DNA of 64,000 bases, taken from an uncultured Rhodopila sp. (GTDB lineage: Bacteria > Pseudomonadota > Alphaproteobacteria > Acetobacterales > Acetobacteraceae). Made by a program: the position numbers and the translations under genes. Below the pieces are notes generated by a model. It did not search any database, had not been told where the DNA came from, and worked only from the letters and a program-made list of their open reading frames with translations. The stretch spans positions 62,001-126,000 of the forward strand of contig NZ_CAJATU010000131.1 in the NCBI RefSeq assembly GCF_903944925.1, given 5' to 3'. Shown in pieces: positions 22,441 to 63,538 of this stretch (position 1 is the first letter of the stretch; every line of letters begins with the position of its first letter).

Positions 22441-23673
22441 ATGCCCGCGGTACGTTCTGTTGCCGAGATCAAGACCCAACTCTGGCAGGAACTGGCGCTG
22501 AAAGCCGAGCTGATCAATGAAGGCGTTGCGATCACGCAGGATGCGCTCGACCTGATCAAGCCCGGCGTCATCGCGCAGGAACAGGTGCACAGCCTGTTCG
22601 AAATGGATTTCGATACCCATGATTTCGAGCTGCCCTCCGGCTACGACCTGCCGAATGGGCTGTCCGTCGGGTTCCGCTGGAACAAGCGGTCCAACAACGT
22701 TATTACCGCCGACGGCAACCGCACTCTCCTGCTGCGCGACGGGCATGAGCATGGCGAGGTGAAATTCCACCCGCGACCGGGGTGGTATAGCCGCAAAACC
22801 TCCGACGGCCAGGACATGTCCACCGTCGGCGTGCTGTATCGCAACCGCGCGCTGTTCGTCGCCTACAGCAACGAGTGCTCCTACAAGGACAAGGGCGAGG
22901 ACTGCCTGTTCTGCAACATCAACTCGACCAAGGACACCTACGGCGAGAAGCGCGGCATCTTCTGGAAGACCGCCGGGCAAATCGGCGAAGTCGCCGCCGC
23001 CGCGTATAAGGAAGGCCTGATCGACCACCTGACGATCAGCGGCGGCGTCATCCCGGAACGGCGCGAACTCGACTACTATCTGGATGTTGCCGAGGCGATC
23101 CAGGACCACACCGGGCTGGAGGATTTCAACGGCACCGCGGTTGTCGCCGCCCCGCTCGACCTGCGCCACCTCGACCGCTTCAAGGAGGCCGGCTACCGCA
23201 CCACGGCGATGAATATCGAGCTGTGGGACAAGAACATGTACGACACGATCTGCCCCGGCAAGTCGCGCGGCGGCGGCGGCTGGGACCATTGGGTGAAGGC
23301 ACTGAACTATGCCGTCGGCGTGTTCGGCCGCGGCAATGTGCGCTCCAACATGGTCGCCGGGATCGAGCCGAAGAAGAAGACGGTCGAAGGCATCCACATC
23401 ATGACCGAGGCCGGCATCGTCGCCACCGCGACGATCTGGTGCCCCAACCCGGGATCGGAGCTGGAAGGCCATCGCGCGCCGGAATCCGGCTGGTATCTGG
23501 ATCTCGCGCACACCATTGCGGGCGCGTGGCGGAAAGCCGGCTTCACCTGGCAGCAGGTGTGCGACTGCAACGCCTCGAACGACACGCTTCAGCACGACAT
23601 CTGGCGCATCCAGGACGAGACCCTGCCGGTGTTCGCCACCGCCCGGACGCTGGTGTCCGAACCGGCGGAATGA
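22441..23673 (+). CDS. Non-canonical radical SAM protein of a nitrogenase-like operon
   Basis: 410 residues, ATG 22441, AAGGAG seven bases upstream. After a ~140-residue N-terminal region comes the cluster motif YSNECSYKDKGEDCLFCN: Cys146, Cys155, Cys158, a CX8CX2C spacing instead of CX3CX2C. The SAM-binding barrel follows (LTISGGVIPERRELDYYLDV with the GGE-like GGV, TTAMNIELWDKNMYDTICPG, IEPKKKTVEGIHIM). It is not NifB: the NifB C-x3-C-x2-C site and NafY-like tail are absent. It is directly followed by H-, D- and K-like genes, so it probably builds or modifies a cofactor or substrate for them. The order radical SAM-H-D-K recalls the methylthio-alkane reductase (mar) operon, but identity is not established. 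Confidence 0.85.
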   Translation: MPAVRSVAEIKTQLWQELALKAELINEGVAITQDALDLIKPGVIAQEQVHSLFEMDFDTHDFELPSGYDLPNGLSVGFRWNKRSNNVITADGNRTLLLRDGHEHGEVKFHPRPGWYSRKTSDGQDMSTVGVLYRNRALFVAYSNECSYKDKGEDCLFCNINSTKDTYGEKRGIFWKTAGQIGEVAAAAYKEGLIDHLTISGGVIPERRELDYYLDVAEAIQDHTGLEDFNGTAVVAAPLDLRHLDRFKEAGYRTTAMNIELWDKNMYDTICPGKSRGGGGWDHWVKALNYAVGVFGRGNVRSNMVAGIEPKKKTVEGIHIMTEAGIVATATIWCPNPGSELEGHRAPESGWYLDLAHTIAGAWRKAGFTWQQVCDCNASNDTLQHDIWRIQDETLPVFATARTLVSEPAE

Positions 23674-23735
23674 GTCAGCAGGCCCGGGGGTTCGCTCTCC
23701 GGGCCGCCGTTCTTGAAGTAAGCACCGGGGGTCCA

Positions 23736-24611
23736 GTGACCGAACGCAGCGTCAAACACATCGCCATCTACGGCAAGGGCGGCATCGGCAAGTCCACCAC
23801 CACGTCCAACATCTCCGCCGCGCTCGCCGAAGCCGGCCGCCGCGTCATCCAGGTCGGCTGCGACCCCAAGGCCGACTCGACCACCATCCTGCGCGGCGGC
23901 GAGGATCTGCCCACGGTGCTGGACACCTTGCGCGAGCAGGGCAAGGTCAGGCTGGAGGACATTTCCGCACTCGGCTTCGGCGGCGTGCTGTGCATCGAAT
24001 CCGGCGGTCCGGTGCCGGGCGTCGGCTGCGCCGGCCGCGGCATCAGCACGGCGGTCGATCTGCTGCACGAGCTGGAGGTGTTCGAGCAGTTCCAGCCCGA
24101 CGTGGTGCTGTACGACGTGCTCGGCGACGTGGTCTGCGGCGGCTTCGCCGTGCCGATACGCGACGGGATCGCGGACCGGGCGTTCGTGGTGACGTCGTCG
24201 GATTTCATGGCGATCTTCGCCGCCAACAACCTGTTCAAGGCGGTCAGCAAATACGCGCCCTCCGGCGGTGCCCGGCTGGGTGGCATCATCGCCAACAACC
24301 TTCAGGCGCCGTACGCCCGCTCCCTGGTGGACGATTTCGCGGGACGCACCGGCACCCGGGTCGTCGGCTACGTGCCGCGCTCGATGGCGGTGGCGCAGGG
24401 CGAGTTGTACGGCCGCACGGTGATCGAATCCTCGCCGCATTCCGAGCAGGCCGAGATCTACCGCCGGCTGGCGCGGGCCGTGGTGGATGACGAGACCACC
24501 ACCCTGCCGCGTCCGCTGAACGGTCCGGCGCTGAAGTCCTGGGCGAAGGAATGGGGCGACCGGATCTTCGTCGAGGACTCGCAACTGGTCGAAGCCGGCG
24601 GCGGAGTCTGA
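23736..24611 (+). CDS. Nitrogenase-reductase-like (NifH/BchL-type) iron protein
   Basis: 291 residues from GTG 23736. Walker A is YGKGGIGKSTT, switch I CDPKADSTT, and the two cluster ligands are Cys97 (PGVGCAGRG) and Cys133 (DVVCGGF), as in NifH. Arg100, the ADP-ribosylation site in NifH, is kept. Thus a homodimer with one bridging [4Fe-4S] and MgATP-driven electron delivery is expected. An in-frame ATG at 23670 overlaps the radical SAM stop as ATGA and would add 22 residues unlike any NifH N-terminus. I prefer the GTG on homology, but coupling favours the ATG. The partner is surely the D/K pair downstream. Confidence 0.93.
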   Translation: MTERSVKHIAIYGKGGIGKSTTTSNISAALAEAGRRVIQVGCDPKADSTTILRGGEDLPTVLDTLREQGKVRLEDISALGFGGVLCIESGGPVPGVGCAGRGISTAVDLLHELEVFEQFQPDVVLYDVLGDVVCGGFAVPIRDGIADRAFVVTSSDFMAIFAANNLFKAVSKYAPSGGARLGGIIANNLQAPYARSLVDDFAGRTGTRVVGYVPRSMAVAQGELYGRTVIESSPHSEQAEIYRRLARAVVDDETTTLPRPLNGPALKSWAKEWGDRIFVEDSQLVEAGGGV

Positions 24612-24612
24612 G

Positions 24613-26034
24613 ATGGCGCGCCGACCGGGCGCGGTGACGCGGGAGCGGCGGCTGCAGGCGGTCAGCGCCTGGCTGGACAAGCCCGATGCGCTGGCGGCGG
24701 AGTTCGCCGCGGGGGAGACCACGCAGCGCATCCGCACGTTCTCCCAGGCGGCGCCGGACGACCTGGTGGCGGCTTTGGACCTGCTCGGGCGATTGAAGGG
24801 TGTGGGGATCGTCGTGCACGGCCCGCGCGGCTGCGCCGCCGCGCTGGTTGGGGCCGCGCCGCTGGCGCATTGGGCGGTCACCGGGCTGGACCAGCGCGAC
24901 ACGATCATGGGGTCCGAGGGGGTGGTGGAGCGCGCCGTGCTGGCCCTGGTGCGGCGGCATGAGCCGTGGGCGGTGTTCGTGGTGACGACTCCCGTGGTGG
25001 CGATCAATGCCGACGACGCGCGCGATACGGTGCTGTCATTGACGGATGAGCTGGGGATTCCGGTGCAACTGGTGCGCACCGACGGGTTCAAGTCGCGCGT
25101 CGCGGCGACGGGTTTCGATGCGGCCTGCCAGGCGCTGCTGAACCTGGTGCCGGCGGTGGCGGAGGCGAGGCAAGACGATCTGGTCAATGTCGTGGCGCGC
25201 GACGCCGCGGCGGCGAGGGCGTCGGCGGCTTTGCTGGAAGAGCTCGGGCTGAAGGTGAATGTGCTGCCGGCGGGGGCCGATGCCGAGGGCTTTGCGCGAG
25301 CGGCGCGGGCACGTCTATCCATCTGCGTTGATCCGGATGCGACGATGGTGTTCGCCGCCGCGCTGGAAGCAGCGCACGGCGTGCCGGTGCTGCGCGCCGG
25401 CGTGCCCATTGGATTGGCCGCGACCCGGCGCTGGCTGGACGCCGTCGCAGCGGCGGCCGGGCAGGCGTCGGCCGGAATCCTGGTGGCACCGCCGTATCAA
25501 CCCGCCATGACGAGGGGGTGGAAGAGGGCGGCCGCCTCCGACAAGGATGGTGCTGCGGAACGGGCCCTGCATGGAGTTCGCGTGCATCTGGCCCTCCCGG
25601 CCGATGCCGTCTTTGCCGCGGCCGAACTGGTCACCGAACTGGGGGGCGTCGTCGCCGGGGTAACCGTCGGGCATATCGATAGCAGCCATGCCGAAGCGCT
25701 TGACGCATTCACCCGTACACACCCCGGCGTCACCCTGCACGTCGCCGCCGGACAGCCGTTCGAACTCGTCAACCTGCTGGCGAAGCAGTGCCTCGACCTG
25801 TTCATGGGCACGCCGGAACTGGCCGCCCTGGCCGCCGCGGCAGGAGTCCCGGCGGTGGGGCTGACCCCGGCCGCCCTCATCGGCTGGCGCGGTGCCGCGC
25901 GGCTGGCGGAGCGGGCACGGGCTGCTCTGACCAATCCGGCCTTCTTCCGCCGTCTGTCGGCCGCGCCGTCTCCGTACGCCGCCGGCTGGCTGCGCCGCAG
26001 CGCCGACTGGCACGTCAAGCAGGAGGTCCGCTGA
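24613..26034 (+). CDS. Nitrogenase component-1-like protein, D-type position, reduced cysteine set
   Basis: 473 residues, starting one base after the H-gene stop. The oxidoreductase/nitrogenase component-1 fold is seen in VHGPRGCAAALVG (Cys74), LDQRDTIMGSEGVVERAVLA, and AVFVVTTPVVAINADDA. The last aligns with the NifD ECPxGLIGDD segment but has Thr in place of Cys. Only one P-cluster-type cysteine therefore remains. Cys238 in LSICVDPDAT may align with the NifD Cys275 region, while the C-terminal segment that carries His442 in NifD reads GLTPAALIGWRGAARLAERA, without His. So no complete FeMo-co site is predicted. Compared with NifD it is shorter, and Ala-rich. Confidence 0.85.
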   Translation: MARRPGAVTRERRLQAVSAWLDKPDALAAEFAAGETTQRIRTFSQAAPDDLVAALDLLGRLKGVGIVVHGPRGCAAALVGAAPLAHWAVTGLDQRDTIMGSEGVVERAVLALVRRHEPWAVFVVTTPVVAINADDARDTVLSLTDELGIPVQLVRTDGFKSRVAATGFDAACQALLNLVPAVAEARQDDLVNVVARDAAAARASAALLEELGLKVNVLPAGADAEGFARAARARLSICVDPDATMVFAAALEAAHGVPVLRAGVPIGLAATRRWLDAVAAAAGQASAGILVAPPYQPAMTRGWKRAAASDKDGAAERALHGVRVHLALPADAVFAAAELVTELGGVVAGVTVGHIDSSHAEALDAFTRTHPGVTLHVAAGQPFELVNLLAKQCLDLFMGTPELAALAAAAGVPAVGLTPAALIGWRGAARLAERARAALTNPAFFRRLSAAPSPYAAGWLRRSADWHVKQEVR

Positions 26035-27332
26035 TGGCCCGTCCGCTGGAAAGCCCCGGCGCGGGATGCGCGCTGCATGGGGCGTTGCACTGCGCCACCG
26101 CCGTCCCTGGCGTCGTGCCGATCCTGCATGCGACGGCGGGGTGTGCGGTGCAGGCGCATCTGAACGGAGCGGCCGCCGGTTTGGGCGGCCCGGACCGGTT
26201 CGGCGGATTGGCGGCTCCGGCGTGCAACGTGTTCGAGAAGCAGGTCGTGTTCGGCGCCACCGCCCGGCTGCGCGAGCAGATCAAGAACACCGTCAAGATC
26301 ATGGATGGCGGCCTGCACGTCGTGCTGACCAGTTGTGCCACCGAGATGATTGGCGACGACGTGCCGGCCATGGCGAAGGAGGCGCGCGACCAGGGATTTG
26401 CCGTGCTGTCAATCGCGTCCGCCGGGTTCCGCGGCAGTGCGCATGACGGCTACGGGCTGTTCCTGAAGGGCGTGCTGGCGCAGTTCGCCGAACCGGCGGG
26501 CGAACGCGACCCTCTGCTGGTCAATCTGCTGGGGATCGTGCCGCGCCAGGACGCGTTCTGGGAGGGCGACCTGGCCGAGTGGTCGCGCCTGCTGGCCGGT
26601 ATCGGCCTGCGCGCCAATCCGGTGTTCGGGCCGGAGGGCGGCATTGACGGGCTGCGCGACCTGACGCGCGCCGGCAGCAGCCTGGTGGTGTCGCCCCGGG
26701 GTGTCGAGGTCGCCCGGGCGCTGGAACAGGATTTCGGTGTGCCCTGGCTGGACACCGGCGGGTTGCCGGTGGGGGCCGTGGCCAGCGGCAGCCTGTTGCG
26801 CGATCTGGCGGCGCGGCTGGATCTGCCGGTCGAACCGGTCGAAGCCTTCATCGCGGCGGAGACGCGGCGCGAGGATCACTACCTCGGTCGGCTCGCGGAC
26901 GTCTATTTCCGGCACGGTCTGCAACGGAGTTTCGCGCTGGTCGCCGGCAGCCTGCACGCGGCCGGGCTGGCGGACTTCCTGACCGGGACGCTGGGCTGGC
27001 TGCCGCGCCTGGTGGTTGTCGCCGACGGTCCGCCGGAAGCGTCCCGCGCGGCGTTGCAGCAGCATATCGCGGCGCTGACCGAAGGCTACGGCACGCGCGT
27101 GCTGTTCAGCGAAGATGCCGGCGAGATCGAGGCGGCGATCGTGGCGGGCGGCGCGGAGATCGTGCTCGGGCGGGCGCTGGATCGCGGCGCCGCCGATGCG
27201 TTGGGCGTCGAACTGGTGCAGGTCGCCTTTCCCGTGGCCGATCGGCTGGTGCTGGACAAAGGGTTGTCGGGGGTAAGGGGGGCGGTGACGCTGATCGAGG
27301 AGATCGCCCGGGCGGTGCTGGCGGCGGGTTGA
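26034..27332 (+). CDS. Nitrogenase component-1-like protein, K-type position, full three-cysteine set
   Basis: 432 residues; ATG 26034 overlaps the previous stop as TGATG and follows AGGAGG. Three ligand-type cysteines are present: Cys12 (GAGCALHGA), Cys37 (LHATAGCAVQ) and Cys101 (LTSCATEMIGDD). The segment CNVFEKQVVFGATARL is the equivalent of the VFGG motif. Extra cysteines are Cys20 and Cys64. Together with Cys74 of the upstream subunit this makes four ligands, the number in BchNB and BchYZ. A single [4Fe-4S] between the subunits is thus more likely than an 8Fe P-cluster. It ends the operon. Substrate unknown. Confidence 0.86.
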   Translation: MARPLESPGAGCALHGALHCATAVPGVVPILHATAGCAVQAHLNGAAAGLGGPDRFGGLAAPACNVFEKQVVFGATARLREQIKNTVKIMDGGLHVVLTSCATEMIGDDVPAMAKEARDQGFAVLSIASAGFRGSAHDGYGLFLKGVLAQFAEPAGERDPLLVNLLGIVPRQDAFWEGDLAEWSRLLAGIGLRANPVFGPEGGIDGLRDLTRAGSSLVVSPRGVEVARALEQDFGVPWLDTGGLPVGAVASGSLLRDLAARLDLPVEPVEAFIAAETRREDHYLGRLADVYFRHGLQRSFALVAGSLHAAGLADFLTGTLGWLPRLVVVADGPPEASRAALQQHIAALTEGYGTRVLFSEDAGEIEAAIVAGGAEIVLGRALDRGAADALGVELVQVAFPVADRLVLDKGLSGVRGAVTLIEEIARAVLAAG

Positions 27333-33861: not shown

Positions 33862-35136
33862 CTATCCCGCCCCGATCACCAGACAAACATTCTGCCCGCC
33901 AAACCCGAACGAATTCGAAATCGCGTGCTTCACCGCCACCGCCCGCGCAACATTCGGCACGCAATCCGCCGGCAGCGCCGGATCCGGGATATCGTAATTG
34001 ATCGTTGGTGGCAACAGACCGTGCCGCACTGTCAACACGGTGAAAATCGCCTCCACCGCCCCCGCCGCGGTCAGAGAGTGGCCGATCATGGATTTGTTGG
34101 ATGACATGGGGATGGAAGATGCGCGCTCGCCGAATACCGCGGAGACGCCAACCCACTCCATCTTGTCGTTTTCCGGGGTGCCGGTGCCGTGCGCGTTGAT
34201 ATACCCGACATCCTCCCCCGACAGCCCCGCATCCGCCAGCGCATGCCGCATACACGCAATGATCGGCTTGCCGTCAGGCGAGGACCGCGTGCGGTGAAAC
34301 CCGTCCGCCACCTCGCCGCAGCCTTCCACCACCGCCAGAACCGTGGCACCCCGCGCCCGCGCGCTGGACAGGCTTTCCAGCACCAAGGCCCCGGCGCCCT
34401 CGGCCATCACGAAACCCTCGCGGTCCTTGCTGAACGGGCGCGACGCCGAGGACGGCGGATCGTTCCGGGTGGACAGCGCCGACAGCAGCGAAAACCGGAT
34501 CAGGCTCTCGGGATTGATCGAGGCATCCGTCCCCACTACCAAAGCCGCATCGGTCTCACCGCGGCGGATCGCCTCCACGCCGAGCTGGATCGCCGTCCCG
34601 CCCGAGGCGCACGCGGTGGACGTCGCTATCGGCGACCCCTTGGTGCCAAACCGTTCCGCCAAATTCTCCGCCACCGAGCCGAACAGGAACCGTTCATAAT
34701 ACCGTTCGAACCCGCCGCGGCCGGCGGCGCGCAGCAGGTCGGTGTAATCGACCGTCTCATCCGCCCCCGACGCCGCTGCCAGCGCGAAGCGCTGCGCCCA
34801 TTCCATCTCCACCGGCGGCAGCGCCAGGAACAGCGTGCCCGGGAAGTCGCCCGGGCGGCCGATGCCGGATTCCGTCAACGCTTCGTCGATCACCAGCTCC
34901 GCCAGGCGCTGCGACAGCGCCGGAGCCGACATTTCCTGTACCGGCACGAAATCCACCGTCCCGGCAATCGTGGTGCGCAGCCCGTCGATCGGAAACCGGG
35001 TGATGCGGCGGATGCCGGACACGCCGCCCGTAAGAGCCTTCCAGTTATCCGCCTGCCCCTGGCCGAGCGACGTCAAAACGCCCATGCCGGTGACCACGAC
35101 GATCGGACGGCCGAGATGATCCGTATCCTGTGTCAT
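33862..35136 (-). CDS. fabF1XL: Beta-ketoacyl-ACP synthase of the very-long-chain (XL) system, catalytic subunit
   Basis: 424 residues from ATG 35136. The condensing-enzyme triad is intact: Cys in ATSTACASGGTAIQLG, His in INAHGTGTPENDKMEW and His in SSNKSMIGHSLTAAGAVEAI. IVVVTGMGVLTSLGQG is the N-terminal KS motif. In Rhizobiales, fabF1XL with its degenerate partner extends acyl-AcpXL to C26-C30 for the 27-hydroxyoctacosanoate of lipid A. Gene order here is the same (acpXL, fabZXL, fabF2XL, fabF1XL). It starts 11 bases after the fabF2XL stop. Confidence 0.9.
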   Translation of the reverse strand: MTQDTDHLGRPIVVVTGMGVLTSLGQGQADNWKALTGGVSGIRRITRFPIDGLRTTIAGTVDFVPVQEMSAPALSQRLAELVIDEALTESGIGRPGDFPGTLFLALPPVEMEWAQRFALAAASGADETVDYTDLLRAAGRGGFERYYERFLFGSVAENLAERFGTKGSPIATSTACASGGTAIQLGVEAIRRGETDAALVVGTDASINPESLIRFSLLSALSTRNDPPSSASRPFSKDREGFVMAEGAGALVLESLSSARARGATVLAVVEGCGEVADGFHRTRSSPDGKPIIACMRHALADAGLSGEDVGYINAHGTGTPENDKMEWVGVSAVFGERASSIPMSSNKSMIGHSLTAAGAVEAIFTVLTVRHGLLPPTINYDIPDPALPADCVPNVARAVAVKHAISNSFGFGGQNVCLVIGAG

Positions 35137-35147
35137 CGCCGTCTCCC

Positions 35148-36338
35148 TTAAGCCGCGGTGACGAGGGCGAGAGCCTCGCCGCGCCAATGTCCCCAGGATG
35201 TCACCAGCGCCTGCCGCAGCGGCGCCGTCATCGTCTGCTCCGCGGCTTCCAGCGGCCCGAACAGCGCGCCGCGCTGCACCGACAGCGCGGCCAGACCCAG
35301 GCTGGCAGGAAAGGACGGCTCCAGCGACGCGCCGACAGCCGTTGCCGACGCCCGCACCGGCAGCCCGAGCGACGCCAGGAACGCCTGCTCCTCCCGGGTG
35401 ATCGCGGCCACGCCCGACGCGCCGGAGATCACCGCCGCGCCCTCCGGATCGTAATGCGGAGCCAATGCTTCGAACTGCGCCCGGGCGTTCGCCGTCGCCT
35501 GTCCCGGGTCACGGTGGCAGCGGTCGGTGCGGATCGCCGCGATATGCGCAAACGGTGTGGCGCCCCGCGCCTGCGCGTGCGTCCGGCTCTCGATCACCAG
35601 GAAGGCGCCGACGGACCCGAGCAGCATGCCGCCGCCGCTGTCCTGCCGCGCCCAGACACCCTCGAACGGCGCCCGGCGTTGCAGGCCGCCCATCTCGTAA
35701 TGCAGCAGAACGTCCGGGCGCTGCGCGTTGTACGACCCGCCGACAAGGGTGATGTCGGCCTGCCCGGCGGCGATCCGGGCGCAGGCGATGCGCACCGCGT
35801 CGGCCCCGGCGGCTTCCTCGCCCATGAAGGTGCGCGACGAACCGGTCACGCCGTGCACAATGGAAATATTGCCCGCCAGCAGGTTGGACAACTGCGCCAG
35901 GAACAGAGTCGGCCGCAGGTCGCCCAGCAAATGCTCGTTCAGGAAGGCGTCCGGGTTGGCCGCCTTCGGGTAGCCGGTCAGGATCGCCGCATCCACCGCG
36001 TAGTCGCGTTCCCCGCCGCCCGCCGCGACAATCAAATCGGCGGTGGACAGCAGCGCGGTGTTGCCCTTCACGCCCGCAGACTCCAGCGCCAGGCCGGCGG
36101 CAAACACGCCGATGCGTTGCCACGGCTCCATCTGCCGCTGGTCGCCGCGCTTGGGGATTTGCGAGTCGAAATTGTGCTCCGCCAGCGGATGCACGGCGAA
36201 CGGCGGAAAGCTCGTGGTATCCAGCACGGGCGCGAATCCGGCGGGATTGTTCAGCGCCTGCCAGTGCGCCTCCACCCCGGACCCGAGGCAGGACACCAGG
36301 CCGATGCCGGTGATCAGGGCGTCGCGCTCATGCGGCAT
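35148..36338 (-). CDS. fabF2XL: Degenerate beta-ketoacyl synthase, XL system partner subunit
   Basis: 396 residues with the KS fold (ALITGIGLVSCLGSGVEAHW, DITLVGGSYNAQRPD, GGGMLLGSVGAFLVIESRTH) but without the triad. The nucleophile region reads HGVTGSSRTFMGEEAAG, with Ser where Cys is expected, and the two His motifs are replaced by ISGASGVAAITREE and ATAVGASLEPSFPASLG. It thus resembles a chain-length-factor-like partner of the catalytic FabF1XL. The start overlaps the dehydratase stop by 11 bases. Role inferred from known XL clusters. Confidence 0.87.
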   Translation of the reverse strand: MPHERDALITGIGLVSCLGSGVEAHWQALNNPAGFAPVLDTTSFPPFAVHPLAEHNFDSQIPKRGDQRQMEPWQRIGVFAAGLALESAGVKGNTALLSTADLIVAAGGGERDYAVDAAILTGYPKAANPDAFLNEHLLGDLRPTLFLAQLSNLLAGNISIVHGVTGSSRTFMGEEAAGADAVRIACARIAAGQADITLVGGSYNAQRPDVLLHYEMGGLQRRAPFEGVWARQDSGGGMLLGSVGAFLVIESRTHAQARGATPFAHIAAIRTDRCHRDPGQATANARAQFEALAPHYDPEGAAVISGASGVAAITREEQAFLASLGLPVRASATAVGASLEPSFPASLGLAALSVQRGALFGPLEAAEQTMTAPLRQALVTSWGHWRGEALALVTAA

Positions 36339-36801
36339 GGATGTGTTCCTCAGGCAGCCCGACCCGCCGGGCGGTTTCCAGCATCGCCGCCTTCAGCGTC
36401 TCATTCGGAAACGGCACGACACCGTAGCGGATTTCGGCGTCAGTGACCTTTTTCCCGCCCGCGGTGATGGACGCCTTGACCACCGCGTAGCCGGAGCCTT
36501 CATGCACCAGATGCGCCTCGGCCTGCATTGCCTGGCCGGGGGAGACGAAGGACCGCATCTTGGCCTTCTCGACCTGCATCAGGAACGGCATTTTGGTGCA
36601 GCCGAGTATCGCCAGCACCAGCCAGCCGCCGGTCTGCGCCATCGTCTCGATCATCAGCACGCCGGGCAGGATCGGGTAGCCGGGGAAATGGCCCTCGAAC
36701 ACCGGGGACTGCTCCGGCACCTGGCAGGCGGTGACGATCCGCCGCCCGGGGATGTCCAGCGCGGTGATCCGATCGACCATCTGGAAATATTCCAGTCGCA
36801 T
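36328..36801 (-). CDS. fabZXL: 3-hydroxyacyl-ACP dehydratase, XL system
   Basis: 157 residues of the FabZ hot-dog family. The catalytic His and Glu lie in SPVFEGHFPGYPILPGVLMI, and ETMAQTGGWLVLAILGCTKM continues the active helix. It dehydrates 3-hydroxyacyl chains on AcpXL during very-long-chain elongation. It begins 33 bases after the acpXL stop and overlaps fabF2XL at its end. Start ATG 36801 (MRLEYFQMVDRITALDIPG) is typical for the XL paralogue, which has a longer N-terminus before the first strand than plain FabZ. Confidence 0.9.
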   Translation of the reverse strand: MRLEYFQMVDRITALDIPGRRIVTACQVPEQSPVFEGHFPGYPILPGVLMIETMAQTGGWLVLAILGCTKMPFLMQVEKAKMRSFVSPGQAMQAEAHLVHEGSGYAVVKASITAGGKKVTDAEIRYGVVPFPNETLKAAMLETARRVGLPEEHIHAA

Positions 36802-36834
36802 CAGCTCACCGTTTCAGTGTGTCATGCGAAATGC

Positions 36835-37116
36835 TCAGGCGGCCTTGGCCGCGACCAGCGCATCGATGTTTTTGCAGAGGTTCTTCAGGACGAAATACTC
36901 GTCCGTGGTCTTCTTCCCCTCGTTCACCTCCTGCGTCCACTGCTCCAGCGGCATCTTGATGCCGAACGCCTTGTCGATGGCGAAGGCCACGTCGAGGAAA
37001 TCCAGGCTGTCGATGCCGAGGTCGTTGATCGCATGGCTGTCGGGCGTGATCTTGTCCGGTTCGATATCGCAGGTGTCGGCAATAATCCCCGCCACGGTTT
37101 CGTACGTCGATGCCAT
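36835..37116 (-). CDS. acpXL: Acyl carrier protein AcpXL
   Basis: 93 residues. The phosphopantetheine site is [18 protein letters not shown] with Ser in [24 protein letters not shown] and [20 protein letters not shown] are specific to AcpXL and absent from fatty-acid-synthesis AcpP. AcpXL carries the very-long-chain hydroxy acid that LpxXL moves to lipid A. First gene of the cluster; promoter must lie between 37117 and the palindromes at 37176. lpxXL itself is not in the window. Confidence 0.95.
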
Positions 37117-61164: not shown

Positions 61165-61485
61165 TCAGGCCTCGCCGAGGGACGGCAGCACCGCCAGGTC
61201 GAGCGCGCGCAGCAGTCGATCCTCCTCGGACAGGTCGCCGACGATACGGCGAACCGGCAGCGGCAGCAGCTTCACCAATGTCGGCGCGGCGATGACGTCG
61301 TATTCCCTGGCGAATTGCGGCTGCTGGTAGATATCGATGATTTCGAGATCGGACTGCCCGGCGAGACGCTGCGAGCAGACCCGCTTGAGGTTCTCGATCG
61401 CGCGCCGCGACCGGAGCGTGCTGCCGGCGACGATCAGCCGCAAACGATGGGTGATTTCCGGCGGGGGTTCGGTCGCTTGCATCAT
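61165..61485 (-). CDS. kaiB: KaiB-family protein (second copy)
   Basis: 106 residues. [60 protein letters not shown] match KaiB, a thioredoxin-like fold-switching protein. Starts with ATGA overlap (61482-61485) at the end of the first kaiB and abuts the kinase gene. The two copies differ enough to suggest separate roles rather than a recent duplication. Confidence 0.92.
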
Positions 61486-61823
61486 GGGACATCCGCCTTT
61501 TGCCGTATATCCAGGCCAACCAGTACGCGTTCCGTATTCGACAGGTCGCCGATGATCCGCTTCAGCGGTGTCGGCAGGCGGCGCACCAAGGTGGGTACCG
61601 CCAGGATCTGATCGCCCGCCGCCAGCCGCGGGTTTTGCAGCAGGTCGATCACCTCGATCTCATAGCGTCCGGCCAGATGGGTTTCGCAGACGCGCCGCAG
61701 GTTGTTCATGGCGGCGATCGACCGTCCGGTGTGGCCGGCGACATACAGTCGCAGGTAATAATAACCGGTATCGCTATCGGCGCCGGCGGGGGCATCGTCG
61801 AAATCGGCGGTGTCCGGCATCAT
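61482..61823 (-). CDS. kaiB: KaiB-family protein (first copy)
   Basis: 113 residues with an acidic N-terminal extension ([20 protein letters not shown]) before the KaiB core [40 protein letters not shown] and [20 protein letters not shown]. The core threonine-proline of the fold-switch region (VPTLVR) is kept. Overlaps the kaiC stop by four bases. It would bind the KaiC CI ring. Confidence 0.93.
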
Positions 61824-63538
61824 TCGGCGCCTCCCCGCCGCTCGGCAATGGCGACGCGATCCCGGGACAGTACGACATCGTGCGCCTCGTCTTCCAGCAG
61901 CAGAGCATGCGCTTCATCCTGCTCGGCGTCGAGGGTGGCCCGCAATTCGTTGATCTGACGTTCCAGCGCCCGCCGCCGCCGCTCCGATTCACGCCGCCGC
62001 TGCCCGATATCGCGCCGCCGCCGCTCGGCCGCGGCAAGCTCGCGCGCCTCCTGCGACAGGCGCGCGGTGCCGGTCAGCACCCCGTCCGGGCCGACATAGG
62101 GATCGATCAGTTCGATCCCGCTATCCGTCATCCGGTACTCGCGCACCTGGTTGGAGTGGCTCGAACCGCGCGACTTGATCAAATACAGCACGCGGTTGCG
62201 TTCACCGTTCGCTTCGAGGTCCATCAGCCTGATCCAGCTATCCATCAGCGAGGACAATGCCTGGTCGGTGCCGTCGTTGAGCGACGAGGAGATCCGCAGG
62301 CTGGTGAACATCCCGGTGACGCCGGCGCTTTTCAGGAAATCCACCATGCGCAGCAAGGTCGCGTGCACCTCCGCGATCGGGCCGCGGAACGCCGAGATCG
62401 GGTCGATGACCACCACCGACGGCCTGAACTCCAGCACGTCGCGATGCATTCGCGCCAGGTGCATCTCCAGCCCGTACAGGCTGGGCCGCGCGGCCTCGAA
62501 GCGCAGCAGCCCGGCATCGACCCGGCGCCGCAGGTCGAGGCCGACGGAGCGGACGTTGCGGCAGATTTCCTCGGCGCTTTCCTCGAACGCGAAAAACATG
62601 CAGCGCTCGCCGCGGCGGCAGGCGGCATCGATGAAATGGCTGGCGATGGTGGTCTTGCCGGTGCCGGCGACGCCGGACAGCAGAATGCTGGAGCCGCGGT
62701 AGAAGCCGCCGTTGCGCAGCATCGCATCCAGCCCGGCGATGCCGGTGGACACCACCTCGTTCGACACCGGGCGGTCGATGCCGGACGAGGTGACCGGCAG
62801 CATGCTGATGCCCGACGCGTCGATCAGGAACGGATATTCGTTGGTGCCGTGCGCCGAACCGCGGTACTTCACCACCCGCAGCCGTCGCGTGGTGATCTGG
62901 TCGATGACGCGGTTGTCGAGCAGGATGACGCAGTCGGAGATGTATTCCTCCAGCCCGTGCCGGGTAAGCTGGCCGTCGCCGCGCTCCCCGGTGATGACCG
63001 CCGTCAGGCCGCGATCCTTGATCCAGGCGAACAGCCGGCGCAGTTCGGCGCGCAGGATGGCGGTATCGGAAAAGCCGGAAAACAGCGATTCGATGGTGTC
63101 GAGCACGATCCGCTTGGCCCCGACGGAGTCCACCGCGTAGCCGAGCCGGACGAACAGGCCTTCGAGGTCGTATTGCCCGGTTTCCTCGATCTCGCTGCGC
63201 TCGACGCGGACATGGTCCACCGCGAGCTTGCCGGCCTGCACCAGCCCGTCGAGGTCGCAGCCGAGCGAGGCAACATTGGCCGCGAGATCTTCCGCGCGCT
63301 CTTCGAAGCTCATGAAGACGCCGGGTTCGCCGAACAGGGTGGCACCATTGACCAGGAACGTGACGGCGAACAGCGTCTTGCCGCATCCGGCGGCGCCGCA
63401 AATCAGGCTGGGACGGCCGGTGGGTAGTCCGCCCAGCAGGATCTCGTCGAAACCGGAGATCCCGGTGGCGGATTTCGGAAGCACGGTGGTGGCAGGCTGG
63501 GTCGTGGCAGACCCGGTATTGGCAGGCTGGGGCGGCAT
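61820..63538 (-). CDS. kaiC: KaiC-like double RecA ATPase/autokinase
   Basis: 572 residues. CI: Walker A GAAGCGKT (48-55) and catalytic Glu pair in [10 protein letters not shown] (79-80). CII: Walker [10 protein letters not shown] (288-296) and Glu pair in [10 protein letters not shown] (319-320). KaiC phosphorylates Ser431/Thr432 in cyanobacteria; the matching segment here reads [12 protein letters not shown], so Ser429-Ser430 replace Ser-Thr. The last ~70 residues are an Arg/Glu-rich coiled coil ([20 protein letters not shown]) in place of the A-loop. First gene of kaiC-kaiB-kaiB-kinase. No KaiA is seen. Confidence 0.95.

Follow-up and report, generated by a model that had tools for sequence, protein, structure and literature searches.

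A nitrogenase-like operon of an uncultured Rhodopila species resembles the isethionate reductase operon isrBHDK

The DNA analyzed here, a stretch of 64,000 nucleotides from an uncultured Rhodopila sp. (referred to as the window), carries at positions 22441-27332 of its forward strand a four-gene operon for a radical S-adenosylmethionine (SAM) protein, a NifH-like ATPase and two component-1 proteins, one D-like and one K-like (B, H, D and K in the following). Judged from its sequence features, the operon is very likely of the isrBHDK type and would encode an assimilatory, O2-independent sulfonate reductase. The best reading of the reaction, drawn by analogy, is an ATP-driven reduction that splits isethionate or other alkanesulfonates at the C-S bond and releases sulfite. 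The open reading frames and Pfam matches for all four proteins confirm the original prediction that the tightly packed genes form a nitrogenase-superfamily operon: 62 bases separate B from H and one base separates H from D, while D and K overlap by one base. The same prediction considered the operon undescribed, which does not hold, as its gene order, the type of its radical SAM protein, Cys74 of D and three cysteines of K correspond to the published description of IsrBHDK. From the proposal of a new ATP-driven reductase, the ATP dependence is retained by family membership and the novelty is lost, since the features match that description. Very probably, the window therefore contains a copy of a recently described enzyme and not a new kind.

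The isrBHDK genes of Rhodobacter capsulatus were identified as encoding an isethionate reductase by mutants and gene transfer, and their product is presented as a nitrogenase-like enzyme by which sulfur is obtained from isethionate and other sulfonates with no need for oxygen (PMC11423573, 2024). According to this report, isrB, isrH and isrDK mutants do not grow anaerobically on isethionate, growth of the DK mutant returns when islAB replaces DK, and the transfer of isrBHDK together with ssuCAB confers growth on isethionate. IsrDK is described as a complex with redox-active Fe-S, for which one [4Fe-4S] cluster was proposed (PMC11423573). The isr gene order, in which the radical SAM gene lies directly upstream of H and is followed by D and K (PMC11423573), is the order found in the window, where the radical SAM gene upstream of H is likewise not of the NifB type.

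The agreement extends to individual residues. IsrD is reported to have a single conserved cysteine (Cys74), either Pro or Ser where NifD has Cys154, Arg where NifD has Cys62, and none of the ligands of the iron-molybdenum cofactor (FeMo-co; NifD Cys275 and His442) (PMC11423573). The window D protein shares the one conserved cysteine at position 74 and the proline at the NifD Cys154 site, and it appears to share the lack of a conserved cofactor cysteine. Residues were counted in final alignments that hold 11 D and 12 K proteins of the group formed by the window operon and its relatives, next to three Mar-type D and two Mar-type K proteins (see below); three carriers found later, which the earlier D and K alignments did not contain, are taken in. 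Cys74 is present in 11/11 group D proteins and is the sole invariant cysteine among the eight for which all cysteines were listed. Pro127 occupies the NifD Cys154 site in all 11, and the three Mar-type D proteins have Cys there. A further cysteine of D, Cys238, was set aside as a cofactor ligand because Thr or Ala takes its place in 7/11 group D proteins; it is found in Rhodopila and in an Acetobacteraceae metagenome-assembled genome (MAG), is missing from Rhodopseudomonas and Thiodictyon, and lies two columns off the Mar ligand. Cysteines 12, 37 and 99 of IsrK and 99/135 of IsrH (PMC11423573) correspond to cysteines 12, 37 and 101 of the window K and 98/134 of the window H, respectively.

Methylthio-alkane reductase (Mar), whose genes were reportedly first described by North et al. 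in 2020, shares the B-H-D-K gene order. A divergent Mar, which would use an [Fe8S9C] cluster to split thioethers at their C-S bond, is favored by several observations. The closest proteins in the PDB are MarH for H (9fmg_D, 381.6 bits), MarD for D (9fmg_A, 118.6 bits) and MarK for K (9d9u_C, 262.9 bits), and the predicted fold of D is nearest to MarD (TM score 0.78, from a model whose alignment included three Mar-type rows). Cys12, Cys37 and Cys101 of K align with Cys in 12/12 group K and 2/2 Mar-type K proteins and are therefore common to Mar. Even so, Mar membership was rejected and this explanation is considered highly improbable. The cofactor ligands of MarD are Cys270 and His429, with Arg428-His429 as a likely hallmark of the enzyme and an [Fe8S9C] cluster as its cofactor, and MarB carries all NifB motifs, according to the 2025 structure paper (PMC12552129). 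The window D protein appears to lack Cys270 and has Gly399-Thr400 at the Arg428-His429 site, where Gly is found in 11/11 group members and Arg-His in 3/3 Mar-type D proteins. Moreover, Mar retains all D-side ligands of the P-cluster, while two of three are missing here; together with three of three in K, this leaves four of the six P-cluster cysteines. The radical SAM protein has the motif CX8CX2C instead of the CX3CX2C of the NifB-like MarB, and its best BLAST alignment to a MarB reaches E 1.2 over 25 aa. It scores 428.7 bits against the NCBIfam model NF045502 variant_rSAM (cut-off 125), so that the Isr feature of a radical SAM protein unlike NifB and MarB is found here. Finally, R. rhenobacensis possesses a true Mar (D protein 908.7 bits to R. 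rubrum MarD) only 4 kb from its isr-type operon (D protein 106.6 bits). The original prediction that the operon is related to mar yet distinct from it, by the cysteine set of D and by the radical SAM protein, is thus borne out. If the Isr reading holds, C-S chemistry would be a further trait shared with Mar.

Other members of the superfamily were compared through their equivalog models. H holds both cysteines of the [4Fe-4S] cluster, Cys98 and Cys134, and the ATP motif GKGGIGKS. Nitrogenase was rejected with scores below cut-off for nifH (377.2 of 394.4 bits, a near miss), nifD (20.5 of 653.6) and nifK (55.1 of 427.3). The bacteriochlorophyll enzymes DPOR and COR were rejected likewise (BchL 234.9 of 345.2, BchX 188.7 of 331.2, BchB 91.5 of 490.4 and BchN 41.6 of 420.0 bits), as was CfbCD (CfbC 324.9 of 402 bits; CfbD 19.7 for D and 23.1 for K of 268.4 bits; a K gene is present). 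A reductase of tetrapyrroles or other unsaturated rings in the manner of DPOR, COR and CfbCD may have a similar cluster make-up and would fit the apparent loss of cofactor ligands, which is also described for BchN and BchY, and the likeness of IsrB to BciD, a bacteriochlorophyll enzyme named as the nearest among reviewed proteins in the account that finds IsrB unrelated to NifB (PMC11423573). Such a function is nevertheless most unlikely, given the Bch and Cfb scores, the bchL- and bchX-type genes already present in the window's genome and the sulfonate genes that adjoin the operon in its relatives. This genome (7.0 Mb, 99% complete, with the operon on contig C131) has NifH-like genes on three further contigs, so that the absence of nif and bch genes claimed in the original prediction is untrue of the genome as a whole.

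Phylogenetic trees agree with these assignments. In the H tree (43 rows, careful), the window, two Rhodopila and three Rhodopseudomonas sequences form one set (support 95/93), Thiodictyon is not resolved and sits on a long branch, and Mar-type H stands apart (93/81). In quick trees of 87 rows each, nine group rows of K (Shimodaira-Hasegawa-like approximate likelihood ratio test, SH-aLRT, 99) are separated from a 39-row set with Mar-type K (100), and the D proteins of the group cluster together (8/8, SH-aLRT 91). Long branches come together in each of the three trees, and the K and D trees suffer from uneven letter composition, so that the deep branching order is not trusted; the separation of H, D and K from Mar is. 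All three proteins thus fall outside Mar, as the original prediction required, and the Nif, Bch and Cfb models are not reached.

The operon is rare, with 3/59 genomes in a search of relatives. When 84,980 species genomes were scanned with an alignment of K proteins, Mar-type ones among them, 300 stretches matched, of which 273 were related; the best 80 of these 273 yielded 75 loci. Eight of the 75 belong to the group: two from Rhodopila, two contigs of one Acetobacteraceae MAG, three from Rhodopseudomonas and one from Thiodictyon. K identities are 75-76% (Acetobacteraceae MAG), 49-52% (Rhodopseudomonas) and 41% (Thiodictyon). An IsrB-type gene is present in 6/8 loci, upstream in five and downstream of K in Thiodictyon; both Acetobacteraceae MAG contigs stop before the B position. 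Within the Rhodopseudomonas family (333 genomes), nine genomes had K matches at E 1e-40, and in six of them K was 49-53% identical. A search of the class (385 genomes spread over families, E 1e-25) returned the window's own genome only. The D search of the order matched 16/299 genomes at E 1e-8, where only the own genome was close and the other 15 matches, at 23-28% identity, are presumably NifE-like. Among 72,556 plasmid records, the best K matches had 31-33% identity and the best radical SAM match 26.6%.

Several observations weigh against the assignment to Isr. It rests on published features compared by description and not on a tree that contains the tested R. capsulatus enzyme, which was not among the 75 loci from the best 80 of 273 related stretches; a PufQ marker used as a probe for R. 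capsulatus matched 0/80. The Rhodobacteraceae, the family of the one genome out of 385 that matched a 16S probe, had no K match at E 1e-15 in 394 genomes (393 genera). The group found here is narrow, while Isr is reported across many phyla, albeit absent from some R. capsulatus strains (PMC11423573). The Arg reported for IsrD in place of NifD Cys62 has a loose counterpart only: Arg39 and Arg41 are present in 11/11 group D proteins, and the aligner places the Mar cysteine at or beside residue 36. In the trees, the support for the D group lies below the star level and Mar-type H is not starred. Finally, the three Rhodopila loci contain no ssu-type gene, two of them being visible over 11 and 21 kb only.

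Outside Rhodopila, the neighborhood survey proposed in the original prediction showed that sulfonate genes adjoin the operon, which is also the situation in R. capsulatus. The ssu genes serve alkanesulfonate uptake and O2-dependent desulfonation. All six carriers in the Rhodopseudomonas family have ssuA-ssuD-ssuC-ssuB-flavin reductase type genes, labeled by BLAST to the R. rhenobacensis genes, in divergent orientation to the operon, and each carrier has a further SsuA-type gene. In R. rhenobacensis itself, NCBIfam models support SsuD (677.3 bits, cut-off 510), SsuC (350.7, cut-off 347) and the SsuA family (233.8, cut-off 163.5), with SsuB (337 of 395) and the flavin reductase below cut-off; SsuD exceeds its cut-off in two species of the family (677 and 680 bits). 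An ssuA-type gene follows K on both Acetobacteraceae MAG contigs (202.8 bits on the one scanned), and Thiodictyon has an SsuB-like ATPase gene directly before H and an SsuA-like protein below cut-off. Rhodopila differs from the Isr system in lacking sulfonate genes at the locus. Elsewhere in the window's genome, two SsuA-family proteins score above cut-off, one of them encoded beside ssuB- and ssuC-type genes (66-70% identity), and SsuD reaches 603.8 bits, also above cut-off.

The missing transporter at the Rhodopila locus would also be expected of a decayed or unused copy. This is very unlikely, as all four frames are intact in three Rhodopila genomes, H and B are 98-99% and 95-97% identical among them, and the ligands are kept. 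K is 93-94% and D 82-87% identical in the same comparison, which makes D the fastest-changing of the four proteins. A D loop near residues 284-318 differs in length among Rhodopila, and residues 288-314 have low model confidence.

The fast change of D is one of the points in favor of an Isr sister enzyme with different preferred sulfonates, such as longer alkanesulfonates, methanesulfonate or sulfoacetate, for which isethionate would be a minor substrate or none at all. The ssuABCD and flavin reductase type genes divergent from the operon in 6/6 Rhodopseudomonas family carriers point in the same direction. By family, SsuD is an enzyme of alkanesulfonates, and the R. capsulatus isr locus is reported to contain ssuCAB and a gene for an NtaA-type monooxygenase instead (PMC11423573). 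The retained cysteine features of published Isr argue against such a shift, which on these sequence comparisons is possible but doubtful. SsuD, an FMNH2-dependent alkanesulfonate monooxygenase, would share substrate class and the product sulfite with the operon if the Isr reading holds, and is its divergently transcribed neighbor in Rhodopseudomonas; it is an unrelated, oxygen-dependent protein. We tentatively propose, while considering it rather unlikely, that the enzyme of the Rhodopila-Rhodopseudomonas branch reduces alkanesulfonates in general and is an O2-independent twin of SsuD that is fed by the same SsuABC and alternates with it according to oxygen. The role of an anaerobic SsuD counterpart whose substrates go beyond isethionate is possibly new. 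The isethionate reductase type is now placed in Rhodopila and Rhodopseudomonas, and gene order ties it to the ssu system. The Rhodopseudomonas locus may hold an aerobic and an anaerobic enzyme as a pair, a handle on substrate range. The aerobic isethionate-cleaving enzyme of R. capsulatus was left open by the 2024 paper (PMC11423573), and the back-to-back ssuD in Rhodopseudomonas suggests where to seek it. On three Rhodopseudomonas contigs (G1093 C7, G1094 C112 and G1095 C12), the isr-type operon is accompanied by two to three K-like genes (34-39%) within ~18-70 kb, of which one per contig is identified as Mar by BLAST against the Mar operon of R. rhenobacensis. These contigs are perhaps sulfur-scavenging islands.

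For the isethionate reductase type in Rhodopila, we infer both substrate and mechanism. H would form a dimer with a single [4Fe-4S] cluster, ligated by Cys98 and Cys134, hydrolyze MgATP and pass electrons to a D2K2 component, which probably lacks P-cluster and FeMo-co. The four conserved cysteines (three in K, one in D) point to a single [4Fe-4S] cluster in each DK pair, with K Cys12, Cys37 and Cys101 and D Cys74 as its putative ligands. DPOR (BchL-BchN-BchB) offers a parallel: the window enzyme probably shares with it a single [4Fe-4S] cluster in each pair, a 3+1 set of ligands and the absence of a cofactor. Three of its ligands are described as coming from the D-like subunit and one, an Asp, from the K-like subunit (PMC11423573), so that the arrangement predicted here, three K-side and one D-side, would be its mirror image. 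As conserved cofactor ligands appear to be lacking, the substrate would occupy the position of FeMo-co in nitrogenase, and in this emptied cavity the electrons would break the bond between carbon and sulfur in isethionate or an alkanesulfonate like it. The sulfite released would be the sulfur source; in R. capsulatus, complementation supports its release from isethionate. If the branch does reduce alkanesulfonates in general, nitrogenase-like chemistry would desulfonate C-SO3 bonds at large, using one [4Fe-4S] cluster with 3+1 ligands on the side opposite to DPOR.

The radical SAM protein may mature or activate the enzyme, or act on the substrate. Its predicted model is of moderate confidence, with a mean predicted local distance difference test (pLDDT) score of 75.5 and the cluster loop 145-171 below 50, and the nearest folds are lipoyl synthase, MgmA, ThiH, HydE and HydG at TM 0.3-0.4, similarities that do not suffice to assign a reaction. 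When the radical SAM alignment was used as a profile against PDB sequences, two matches appeared near E 0.6 and were considered fortuitous. A second IsrB-type gene without HDK was detected in genome G007 on contig C105 (L074:9265-10527, minus strand; 46-47% identical, 428.6 bits to NF045502), adjoining a gene of the O-acetylhomoserine sulfhydrylase type (582 bits, cut-off 495). In the window's genome, this HDK-less gene is represented by frame-broken scraps only (C42 near 349744, L075). Thiodictyon carries two tandem IsrB-type genes downstream of H-D-K (L094:14289-16950) rather than one upstream.

Coordinates of the operon and of its conserved residues in the window (Table 1) include the B-H spacer, which as a candidate conserved RNA element has a predicted fold no better than shuffles. 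The B-H spacers of two congeners (L037:10943-11156 and L081:7509-7675; folds computed on 148 bases each) contain strong hairpins that differ from one another (z -7.3 and -9.8; ~29 pairs in the stem of one of them) and are not seen in the window spacer.

Table 1. Features of the isrBHDK-type operon and the evidence for them (aligned rows and group as in the text).
Feature	Position	Strand	Evidence
isrB-type radical SAM protein (P0001, 410 aa), motif CX8CX2C	22441..23673	+	Pfam Radical_SAM 35.7 bits; NCBIfam NF045502
Cys146, Cys155 and Cys158 codons (radical SAM cluster)	22876..22914	+	kept in 12/12 aligned rows, window counted
B-H spacer, 62 bases	23674..23735	+	fold against shuffles, z -0.27
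isrH-type NifH-like ATPase (P0002), GTG start	23736..24611	+	Fer4_NifH 323 bits
isrD-type component-1 protein (P0003)	24613..26034	+	Oxidored_nitro 168 bits
D Cys74 codon (counterpart of NifD Cys88)	24832..24834	+	11/11 group D proteins
D Pro127 codon (NifD Cys154 site)	24991..24993	+	Pro in 11/11 group; Cys in 3/3 Mar-type D
isrK-type component-1 protein (P0004), 44.5 kDa calculated	26034..27332	+	Oxidored_nitro 222 bits
K Cys12 (26067-26069), Cys37 (26142-26144) and Cys101 (26334-26336)	26067..26336	+	12/12 group K, 2/2 Mar-type K

Two further gene sets were noted on the minus strand of the window. At 33862-37116, frames for a ketosynthase and acyl carrier protein, both identified by Pfam, enclose two others that by reading only resemble a second ketosynthase and a dehydratase. 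At 61482-63538, KaiB-type (88 bits) and KaiC-type (364 bits) genes are present.

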